40,665 nucleotides of DNA from an uncultured Cryomorphaceae bacterium (GCA_913060465.1 CAJXTR010000004.1:1-40665), one strand, 5' to 3'. Shown: positions 14,389 through 17,831, counted from the stretch's first letter. Program-made: numbers and translations. Notes: generated by a model not told the origin, from the sequence alone.

Positions 14389-15645
14389 ATGGCGTTGTTC
14401 CTAAGCATACATACAGATATAATGATCTTCCGCATACTCTTTACTTTGGGTATGGTTCTCGCCATAGACCTTTACGCCTACCAAGCCTTCCGCACCGTTT
14501 TTAAAAGTCCCGCAACACCCTGGATTTACTGGGGCATCACAGCCGCCTATGTAGCACTGAGCCTTGTGGTTACTGCCATGATGATGAACGGCAAAGTAGA
14601 TTATAAGGTGGGCAGCATTCTTTTCGGTGCCTCCATTTTACTTGCTGTCCCTAAGCTAATCGCCATCATCCCTCTTCTTCTCGAAGATATCACGCGAATT
14701 ATTCAATATGCGGTCCGATTATTCACTGTGCAGCCCGCAATACTCCCCGAACGCAGAGCCTTCATTTCAAAGATCGCTCTAGGGCTTGCAGCCGTTCCCT
14801 TCTTGGGAATCCTAGACGGCATTTGGAAGGGTCGTTACCGCTACCGCGTTATCAGCCACACCCTTGAATACGAAGATTTACCAGACGCTTTCGACGGTTT
14901 CACCATTGCACAGATTTCAGACATCCACAGCGGCTCATTCGACAACCAAGAAAAGGTGCAATATGGGGTGGATATGGTTACTGAACTCGGCGCAGATGCC
15001 GTGGTGTTTACAGGCGATATGGTTAACAACATCGCTGATGAAGCAGAGCCATGGATCCCAACCTTCCAACGATTGAAAGGAAAATTGGGCATCTTCTCTA
15101 TTCTTGGAAACCACGACTACGGCGATTATTGGAAGTTTCCTTCTCCTGAAGCCAAGGTGGCAAACCTGGACCGACTCAAGGAGATTCACAAGGAGATGGG
15201 CATGGACCTTCTGTTGAATGAAAGCCGCTACTTCGAGCGCAACGGACAGCGTATTTACCTCGCAGGTGTCGAGAACTGGGGGCTACCTCCTTTTCCTCCT
15301 TATGGGGATTTGGATAAAGCACTGGAACAGATTCCGGAAGATGCGTTCACCGTATTGCTAAGCCACGACCCAAGCCACTTTGATGCGAAGGTCAAGCAAC
15401 ACCCGAACAAGGTGCACCTCACCTTAAGTGGCCATACCCACGGCATGCAGTTTGGTATTGAAATTCCTGGATGGATCAAATGGTCTCCGGTGAAATTCAA
15501 ATACCCAAAATGGGCGGGTGTGTACCGCGAAGAAGATGGTAAAGTCTTACACGTGAACCGTGGCTTTGGCTATTTAGCCTTCCCAGGTCGCGTTGGAATG
15601 TGGCCTGAAATCACCCACATTACGCTCAAAAAGAAATTGGCTTAA
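14389..15645 (+). CDS. Membrane-anchored metallophosphoesterase (YkuE-like)
   Basis: N-terminal TM helices, then calcineurin-like motifs IAQISDIHSGSFD, ADAVVFTGDMVNN, FSILGNHDYGDY, LSGHTHGMQFG. Confidence 0.9.
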   Translation: MALFLSIHTDIMIFRILFTLGMVLAIDLYAYQAFRTVFKSPATPWIYWGITAAYVALSLVVTAMMMNGKVDYKVGSILFGASILLAVPKLIAIIPLLLEDITRIIQYAVRLFTVQPAILPERRAFISKIALGLAAVPFLGILDGIWKGRYRYRVISHTLEYEDLPDAFDGFTIAQISDIHSGSFDNQEKVQYGVDMVTELGADAVVFTGDMVNNIADEAEPWIPTFQRLKGKLGIFSILGNHDYGDYWKFPSPEAKVANLDRLKEIHKEMGMDLLLNESRYFERNGQRIYLAGVENWGLPPFPPYGDLDKALEQIPEDAFTVLLSHDPSHFDAKVKQHPNKVHLTLSGHTHGMQFGIEIPGWIKWSPVKFKYPKWAGVYREEDGKVLHVNRGFGYLAFPGRVGMWPEITHITLKKKLA

Positions 15646-17624
15646 TCCTGCTTTTGGTAGAGTCGCGACATAAAATAAATGTGCGGCAGACTTAAGGCGC
15701 TGAGGAAAATCAAGAAGTAACTACTCCATTGGGAGAGGGAGTTACGGTCAAATTGGAAAATCACCAGGAATAAGGCAATTGCACCTAGCGTGAACGGCAA
15801 TGCCTTCATGAACATTTGAACATGGGACCAGCGGTGTGCCTTCTTCAAATGATCCCACCCCGAAGTGCTGTGTTGCAAAATAAAATACGTACCGAAGGCG
15901 ACGGCTAAGGATTGTTCGCCAAGCAGCACCAAGGTCAGAATAGAAACCAACCATGGTAAAGACCCAAACCAAAGCCCCCCGACAATTCCAACAGCTGCAG
16001 CCGAGCGATAAAACGTTGTACTGAAGTCAGCGGAAATGGCAACTTCCTGAATGCCCATTGAGGCGAGAACAATATTCACCTCTGACATATGGGGCAAAAG
16101 CAATAGCGCGAAAAGAATAATGCCCCAGGTAATAGACAGCACAGGACTAGGTAAGTTCCACTCCCGCATATCTGTTTCTCCAAAATGCCAAGCACTGTAT
16201 AAAACGAACGCTAACAAACCTGCTATAGGACTTGCCGCCCAAAACAGTAATACAAGTGCCATGATGCCACTGTAGCGTAAAATAAACTTTGGAAGTCGCA
16301 TACCATTGGCATGCCCATAACCGTCGAGCGCGCCATGAGGTATACCCACCAAAAACAGCATGAAAAGCAAAATACCCAATGAAATCGCCGAAGCCCATTG
16401 AGGAATAACGACTTGTAACCCAAAGGCGACTACCACAAATGCAATAGGCGCCCACCGCGCCGGCCTAGATTTCAAAAACGCGAAAAAGGAAGCCACCACT
16501 GCCCAAAGGAACTTCATGATGGGTAAACCCGAAAACATTCCTATTTCCCATCGCAACGAACTCTTTTCATCTAGGAAATCATAAATCCCTTCATGACTTT
16601 GATTCGTGAAGAGCTTTACAAATATCTCTTTTCCCCAATGCGGCTTCGTTTTAAGAATGTGTAATAAAAGGTGATCGTAGAAATAATGTCGACCTATTCC
16701 TGTACGCGGCCAACTCCACATAGAACGTGTGTTCGCCTTGATTTCATTGTTCCATTCGTTCGCAATGGCATATGCCTGGTCAAACATGTGCTTAAACCCA
16801 TAGCCTGTGGTTGCTTTTATAAGCCCCGCGCGCGTTCCCATGGAAACGACCCTAGAATCTGGAAAATGCTGTTTGGCATGTTGTGACATAGGAATGACGC
16901 CACGCTCTTCATGATGAACATCATAAGGCCCGTCCAAAGAGAACAGATAACTTCTCAAATGAGTATGGGCAAGATCTTCAGGCAAAACCTCGGCACCGAA
17001 CCTCGTGACCTCTACTAAAGCCTCATGCTCAGAAATAGGGAGGATGTACATGAACTGTGTGAAATCATTCTGTGGAATATCAAAATCCATCAATACCATT
17101 TCACTCGGATCCCAGTTGGGCCAATCTGTCTTTACACGCCAACCGGTAAAACTCTGTAGAACAAGATCACCTGTAGGCTCATTGATCTCCGGCATTCGAC
17201 TATCATAAACCTTTGAAGCGACCCAAAACTCATTATCTGAATAAACCGCCACACCCTCTGGTAAGCTTTTGTAGCCTGTGAACCGCGCCCGTATGTTAGT
17301 TATGTTGGAGTTCCTAGCCACTAAGTCCTTCGTGTAGCTATAAAGCGCGGTGCTCTCCAGCATGCCATAGCGCTTGCTTTGCATGTGCTCAGTTTCTCCT
17401 CCGAAATTCACCTTTCGCCACTCCTTTAATAATAGGGGACCTAAACTTGTCCGGATGGGATCATTTTTATCCGCCCAAAAACAAAATGTTTTATCGTTGC
17501 TAAGTTTTGCTTCGGATTCGATAATCAGAACACGCAAATTGGCCAAAACACCTCGCTCTTCTAATGCAAGAAGTAACAAACTGTTGGAGGCACCGAGACC
17601 AATTAATGCAATATCGAATTTCAT
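15642..17624 (-). CDS. crtY-blh: Bifunctional fusion: lycopene beta-cyclase (CrtY-type, N-terminal) + Brp/Blh-family beta-carotene 15,15'-dioxygenase (C-terminal)
   Basis: Single uninterrupted 660-aa ORF. N-terminus: IALIGLGASNSLLL (nucleotide-binding), VYDSRMP, LQSFTGWRV, MVLMDFDIPQ, FMYILPISEHEALVEVTRF, TGYGF = lycopene cyclase. C-terminus after ...FLKSRPARW (~nt 16460): polytopic membrane domain with VGIPHGALDGYGH, YSAWHFGETD, FILQHSTSGWDHLKK = Blh signatures with conserved His. Confidence 0.9.
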   Translation of the reverse strand: MKFDIALIGLGASNSLLLLALEERGVLANLRVLIIESEAKLSNDKTFCFWADKNDPIRTSLGPLLLKEWRKVNFGGETEHMQSKRYGMLESTALYSYTKDLVARNSNITNIRARFTGYKSLPEGVAVYSDNEFWVASKVYDSRMPEINEPTGDLVLQSFTGWRVKTDWPNWDPSEMVLMDFDIPQNDFTQFMYILPISEHEALVEVTRFGAEVLPEDLAHTHLRSYLFSLDGPYDVHHEERGVIPMSQHAKQHFPDSRVVSMGTRAGLIKATTGYGFKHMFDQAYAIANEWNNEIKANTRSMWSWPRTGIGRHYFYDHLLLHILKTKPHWGKEIFVKLFTNQSHEGIYDFLDEKSSLRWEIGMFSGLPIMKFLWAVVASFFAFLKSRPARWAPIAFVVVAFGLQVVIPQWASAISLGILLFMLFLVGIPHGALDGYGHANGMRLPKFILRYSGIMALVLLFWAASPIAGLLAFVLYSAWHFGETDMREWNLPSPVLSITWGIILFALLLLPHMSEVNIVLASMGIQEVAISADFSTTFYRSAAAVGIVGGLWFGSLPWLVSILTLVLLGEQSLAVAFGTYFILQHSTSGWDHLKKAHRWSHVQMFMKALPFTLGAIALFLVIFQFDRNSLSQWSSYFLIFLSALSLPHIYFMSRLYQKQD

Positions 17625-17739
17625 TATAAAATGTACATGTGACCTTTTATATTTACATAAACAAATAATATTCGCTTTTGTTCTAAGACATAGGCTTTTG
17701 CACTCTTTTAGCCCCTGAAAGCGTGTTTTTTAAGTATTT

Positions 17740-17759
17740 ATTGAGTGTTAATACTCAAT
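17740..17759. promoter_or_regulatory. 20-bp near-perfect palindrome in the crtY-blh / proteorhodopsin intergenic region
   Basis: ATTGAGT-g-TTAA-t-ACTCAAT: 7-bp perfect arms around a TTAA core; only the g/t pair breaks the symmetry. Confidence 0.55.
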
Positions 17760-17788
17760 TTTTAATCTGCGCTGAACAATTGCATTAG

Positions 17789-17817
17789 TTGTAAGTTAAG
17801 TGGTAGTTATAACCTTT
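17789..17817 (+). promoter_or_regulatory. Candidate Bacteroidota sigma-A-type promoter for the rhodopsin
   Basis: TTG (17789-17791), 18-bp spacer, TAACCTTT (17810-17817); resembles the TTG...TAnnTTTG consensus, 14 bp before the ATG. Confidence 0.55.
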
Positions 17818-17831
17818 AATTTTTTAACACC

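Follow-up and report, generated by a model that had tools for sequence, protein, structure and literature searches.

Fusion of two consecutive steps of a biosynthetic pathway in one polypeptide raises the question of whether the product of the first step is thereby reserved for the second. The question is posed here by a crtY-blh gene beside a rhodopsin gene in a 40,665-nucleotide stretch of DNA from an uncultured Cryomorphaceae bacterium (GCA_913060465.1 CAJXTR010000004.1:1-40665), referred to in full as the window. We consider it probable that the encoded protein is a bifunctional enzyme dedicated to retinal, the xanthophyll branch having a cyclase of its own. Both bifunctionality and dedication are strongly suggested by the sequence comparisons described below.

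The fusion gene and its neighbors

An earlier note on the window had claimed a 660-residue open reading frame with a CrtY-like and a Blh-like half. The frame is intact, beginning with ATG and containing no internal stop codons (Table 1), and both halves exceed their Pfam cut-offs, Lycopene_cycl (PF05834) with 148.2 bits against 23.4 (E 4.5e-43) and BCD (PF15461) with 84.7 bits against 28 (E 1.1e-23). The motifs that the note had listed are all present in the protein, which also passes the NCBIfam model for Blh, TIGR03753 (105.7 bits, cut-off 95.25). The CrtY half misses the equivalog cut-off of TIGR01789 (63.3 vs 215.2 bits; NCBIfam) and matches TIGR01790, likewise below cut-off. A stand-alone CrtY from Aquimarina scores still lower on TIGR01789 (40.7 bits), and the shortfall is therefore general to Bacteroidota CrtY. 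At its 3' end, the fusion gene overlaps tail-to-tail by 4 bp (15642-15645) with a metallophosphoesterase gene on the plus strand (14389-15645).

Table 1. Features of the crtY-blh locus, with positions counted from the first nucleotide of the window
Feature	Positions	Strand	Remarks
crtY-blh fusion gene	15642..17624	-	660 aa, single open frame; same architecture in >70 other contigs
Lycopene beta-cyclase half (PF05834, FAD-type fold)	16515..17615	-	residues 4-370; invariant E205 in LPISEHEALVE
Interdomain segment	16407..16520	-	residues 369-406; two predicted helices, high pLDDT
Brp/Blh beta-carotene 15,15'-dioxygenase half (PF15461)	15660..16361	-	residues 422-655; multi-helix membrane protein
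Shared divergent regulatory region, 207 bp	17625..17831	.	dyad TTGAGTGTTAATACTCAA at 17741-17758, flanking TTGTTC/GAACAA
Divergent proteorhodopsin, 244 aa	17832..18566	+	DTE = D84/T88/E95; retinal lysine in DAINKIGFG

Residues G9, G11, E205, E240, and D317 of the CrtY half are conserved across fused and unfused proteins, the FAD-binding glycines G9 and G11 being nearly invariant and E205 present in 59/59 fused and 45/45 unfused sequences. In the Blh half, H430 and H648 are found in 61/61 fused and 61/61 unfused proteins and H480 and H585 in 61/61 and 59/61, respectively, making these four histidines putative iron ligands. Loss of catalytic residues from one of the halves, a concern of the earlier note, is thus not the case, the family-conserved residues being kept in both, and on this evidence both halves are apparently functional. 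An HxxE pair (H512/E515) in the Blh half is present in 61/61 fused rows and in only about a third of unfused Blh proteins, and constitutes a lineage-specific motif.

An AlphaFold2 model built from 47 fused sequences has a mean pLDDT of 88.7 and a pTM of 0.79, with helices at residues 369-386 and 388-406 bridging the domains. Foldseek matched the CrtY half to geranylgeranyl-reductase and flavin-monooxygenase folds, and no Blh relative was recognizable by name among the 50 PDB matches listed. A search by sequence for a solved structure of either half returned none.

The divergent rhodopsin gene that the note had placed next door is confirmed in the window, but such adjacency is not universal: of 84 fused loci, 44 have a rhodopsin in the stretch read, on the same strand in 25 and divergent in 19, while another 31 have none there, even though the flank on each side is 2.5 kb or longer. 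One locus (L140:1764-5864) has the fused gene between two rhodopsin genes, all on the same strand. The best PDB matches of the window rhodopsin are proteorhodopsins, and its DTE residues make up the motif of proton-pumping proteorhodopsins. Its W140-G141-A-L-S aligns with the W-G-x-L-S of xanthorhodopsin and Kin4B8, in which a glycine (Gly156 and Gly153, respectively) opens the carotenoid fenestration (PMC13093654); Kin4B8 and two proteorhodopsins bind lutein and zeaxanthin (PMC12308411). It is possible, judging from this alignment, that the window rhodopsin also binds a carotenoid antenna. The dyad in the intergenic region, with its flanking TTGTTC/GAACAA, is kept in degenerate form across the genus and is a possible shared operator. 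This region yielded no sigma-70 site, and the Bacteroidetes-type promoter pattern occurs there at chance level. A strongly conserved GTTAAGTGGTAGTTATAACCTTTAAT precedes the rhodopsin gene in the same region and is also kept across the genus.

Distribution and origin of the fusion

A scan of 84,980 species genomes for the window protein recovered 79 distinct loci in other assemblies, most of them covering residues ~1-660 in one frame; 46 fused proteins are 29-74% identical to that of the window. Within the GTDB family of the window (88 genomes), cyclase and dioxygenase occur in all 25 members of its own genus and are fused wherever the contig spans both domains (in G063 the locus is truncated by the end of a contig, and in G078 it is divided between contigs); fused members also occur in two further genera of the family. 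In an even draw of 393 genomes from the phylum, BCD was found in 60 and the fusion in five, including the window's own genome. Carriers are mostly aquatic Bacteroidota metagenome-assembled genomes, plus one genome each under the names Ignavibacteria, Chlorobiota, and Kapaibacterium, all names being taken as deposited. The architecture had been put forward as unusual, crtY and blh being normally separate genes. That view did not hold, as the fusion is genus-wide and extends to many aquatic Bacteroidota lineages and to Ignavibacteriota- and Chlorobiota-named genomes. We found no plasmid or viral carriage of the fusion, plasmid matches covering at most about half of the query.

The 59 fused rows in a tree of 104 CrtY domains fall on one side of a branch with an SH-aLRT of 98. 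The 61 fused rows of the Blh tree require four changes, unfused L066 and L078 and the long-branch L137 falling inside the group. We infer that the fusion arose once, since the fused CrtY halves form one clade and the fused Blh halves nearly so. Judged from these trees, both halves are retained together in almost all descendants of the single event. L066:3556-5666 is a fused gene whose cyclase C-terminus is apparently frameshifted, and it sits in the fused Blh clade, where L078:4635-5693, a Blh lacking the cyclase half, looks like a case of cyclase-half loss.

The likely precursor state of the fusion is seen in genus g6 of the window's family, where the crtY and blh genes share an ATGA overlap and a rhodopsin gene lies alongside. 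The spacing between FLDEK, the last motif of the cyclase, and PHG, the first of Blh, measures 79 residues in the window protein and 76-80 in 58 of the 59 fused proteins. Unfused CrtY proteins, of which few have a readable motif, carry 34-38 residues after FLDEK, and unfused Blh proteins mostly 44-47 before PHG. As the fused spacing is roughly the sum of these tails, the join lost almost nothing and its length has been held since. A separate and unrelated Blh fusion was seen in L167:3643-6513, a 956-aa frame with a C-terminal Blh and ~650 N-terminal residues without a Pfam match.

Lycopene cyclases of fused genomes

In the window's genome, which is 84% complete, PF05834 and BCD are each represented by a single gene, in both cases the fusion; no second stand-alone CrtY scored above the cut-off. 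The earlier note was correct that the window holds no other carotenoid genes, the rest of the pathway being located on other contigs. Contig C1 carries crtI, crtB, and idi, directly upstream of which lie a CarH-like MerR/B12-binding regulator and an ECF-type sigma factor (L130:4755-9112); light-controlled carotenogenesis is possible. A cluster on contig C37 encodes a CrtZ-like hydroxylase, a hydratase of the CruF family, CrtD (which passes its NCBI cut-off), and a lycopene cyclase of the CrtYcd type that is non-homologous to CrtY and exceeds the cut-offs of both PF18916 and TIGR03462. No Pfam model matches the hydroxylase, but it shares 42% identity with Pantoea plasmid loci, and one of the matches listed bears the annotation beta-carotene hydroxylase.

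By analogy with Nonlabens, the C37 gene set predicts saproxanthin and/or zeaxanthin (PMC11855829). The myxol/zeaxanthin cluster of Nonlabens spongiae likewise groups crtZ, crtD, and cruF with a lycopene cyclase (PMC11855829), but there the cyclase is CrtY, whereas on C37 it is CrtYcd, CrtY being committed to the retinal fusion. CrtY co-expressed with CruF gives monocyclic products (PMC11855829), and CruF therefore competes for the second cyclization, which would provide a reason to shield a retinal line.

CrtYcd is present in 31 of 36 genomes of the family in which CrtY is fused or adjacent to blh, as opposed to 0 of 10 with an unlinked CrtY (Fisher p 7e-7, uncorrected for kinship). Outside the family, a second cyclase was found in 38 of 47 unique fused genomes, CrtYcd in 30 and a second stand-alone CrtY in eight, with no genome having both (p 8e-5, also uncorrected for kinship). 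Two of the 47 (via L031 and L033) appear to be assemblies already counted in the family set as G040 and G059, which makes the tallies less than fully independent, and as the counts ignore kinship we treat them as a strong association, not proof. The second CrtYs lie outside the fused clade of the CrtY tree and, where enough flank was read, adjoin crtZ, crtB, crtI, cruF, or crtD; CrtYcd is beside crtZ in 15 of the 16 fused genomes in which it was read with its surroundings. Neither CrtYcd nor a second CrtY was detected in nine of the 47, three of which are near-complete (G307, G516, and G522). The proposal that the fusion decouples retinal from the general carotenoid pool is supported by these frequencies and by the CrtYcd beside crtZ, crtD, and cruF in the window's own genome.

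Adjacent unfused crtY|blh pairs often have a second cyclase too, indicating that dedication preceded fusion. Retinal does not depend on a private cyclase, as 13 genomes of genus g17 have a stand-alone Blh and CrtYcd with PF05834 absent and must use CrtYcd. Other genomes of g17 have the fusion. The stand-alone Blh proteins of g17 (L142, L143, L144, L185, L186, and L187) are very divergent, with a stem branch of 3.5 in the Blh tree.

Readings of the fusion and related systems

As a dedicated retinal enzyme, the fusion would act through an N-terminal FAD-dependent CrtY half that cyclizes both ends of lycopene to give beta-carotene, and a C-terminal Blh half in the same membrane that cleaves beta-carotene at the 15,15' bond into two retinals. 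A short helical linker, rigid and constant in length, would connect the halves, and beta-carotene may be transferred directly between them. Retinal would then charge the divergently transcribed proteorhodopsin, while other carotenoids, predicted to be of the saproxanthin/zeaxanthin type, would probably be cyclized by the CrtYcd from the other contig. In this way a cyclase would be reserved for retinal, at a fixed 1:1 ratio to the cleaving enzyme.

We lean only slightly against a bifunctional fusion that fixes just stoichiometry and co-location, beta-carotene being freely shared in the membrane with neither a private line nor channeling. Beta-carotene is lipophilic and both halves are at the same membrane, and co-expression is already provided by the overlapping but unfused crtY|blh pairs, often in the company of a second cyclase. 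The near-invariant spacing and confidently predicted helices, together with long retention of the fusion and hardly any splitting, nevertheless exceed what loose co-expression needs. Rather more tentative is a stronger form of dedication, in which the fusion would channel lycopene to retinal and hide gamma- and beta-carotene from CruF and CrtZ, while a parallel CrtYcd-CrtZ line would yield a 3-hydroxylated antenna that could dock at G141, both lines meeting at one rhodopsin.

It seems improbable that the fusion is a general beta-carotene supplier as well as a retinal maker, with CrtYcd making only monocyclic carotenoids or being specialized elsewhere. The fusion is the sole CrtY-type cyclase in the window's genome, some fused genomes have no other detectable cyclase, and both CruF and CrtD act in the synthesis of monocyclic carotenoids (PMC11855829). 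The adjacency of CrtYcd to crtZ in nearly all fused genomes read and the location of second CrtYs in crtI-crtB-crtZ clusters argue against such a role. Degeneration of one half, leaving the cyclase half as an anchor or regulator of a Blh fed by CrtYcd, or the reverse, is very improbable: the CrtY half does fall under the NCBI equivalog cut-offs, but stand-alone Bacteroidota CrtY scores no better, and fused proteins retain E205, E240, D317, the FAD glycines, and all four histidines of Blh. An assembly or frameshift chimera joining two genes at the junction, about which the earlier note had worried, has nothing in the window to speak for it and a negligible probability, and was ruled out, as independently assembled contigs, more than 70 in all and including those of related genomes, encode the same full-length frame in sequences as little as 29% and at most 74% identical, and the fused halves are monophyletic.

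The closest counterparts to the dedicated fusion are the stand-alone CrtY and Brp/Blh (PF15461/TIGR03753) pairs of rhodopsin loci in Bacteroidota and other bacteria, which belong to the same families, have the same expected reactions, and are often near a rhodopsin gene, the adjacency of blh to rhodopsin being well documented (PMC5932025). The window type differs in being one polypeptide of fixed spacing and single origin, usually with a second cyclase elsewhere. The CrtI-CrtB-CrtYc/d-Blh tetrafusion of Thecamonas trahens likewise unites a lycopene cyclase with Blh in one protein, and was tied to retinal production by its authors (PMC10016063). It is eukaryotic, uses the unrelated CrtYc/d cyclase family, and includes CrtI and CrtB, whereas PF05834 and PF15461 are the only domains found in the 660-aa chain, CrtYc/d, CrtI, and CrtB of the Thecamonas type being absent; the tetrafusion is an independent invention. 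Carotenoid steps are also fused in one chain in thraustochytrid CrtIBY and the fungal bifunctional lycopene cyclase/phytoene synthase, which have CrtYc/d-type cyclases, end at beta-carotene, and to our knowledge include no Blh.

The earlier note had allowed that this might be an already catalogued common architecture. Common it is, but a full-text search found no paper on a bacterial CrtY-Blh fusion, which is weak evidence of novelty given that most subscription papers were outside its scope. The enzyme families are known, and what is apparently new is how they are arranged and that a second cyclase tends to accompany them. The fusion, which most carriers combine with a separate cyclase, makes the split between retinal and protective or antenna carotenoids testable via one gene and offers a natural lycopene-to-retinal enzyme for engineering. 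It will be miscounted in searches that take crtY and blh to be two genes.

One copy, in L060 ('bacterium isolate LH_M94'), is intact only under genetic code 25, with 14 TGA codons read as glycine. The same stretch (L060:3352-10093) also encodes a divergent KR2/NDQ-like rhodopsin, CrtB, CrtI, and an Na/Ca exchanger, and the fusion protein nests among otherwise Bacteroidota- and Chlorobiota-named rows (bootstrap/SH-aLRT 99/97). If the contig is correctly binned, this compact lycopene-to-retinal-to-rhodopsin cassette was, from its placement in the tree, evidently acquired from Bacteroidota. Environmental Absconditabacteria have been reported to carry NDQ rhodopsins (PMC8406219), and we found no mention of retinal synthesis in that group in the literature searched. 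A single origin followed by movement between phyla, including into a recoded bacterium if the binning is correct, means that the two steps travel as a unit.
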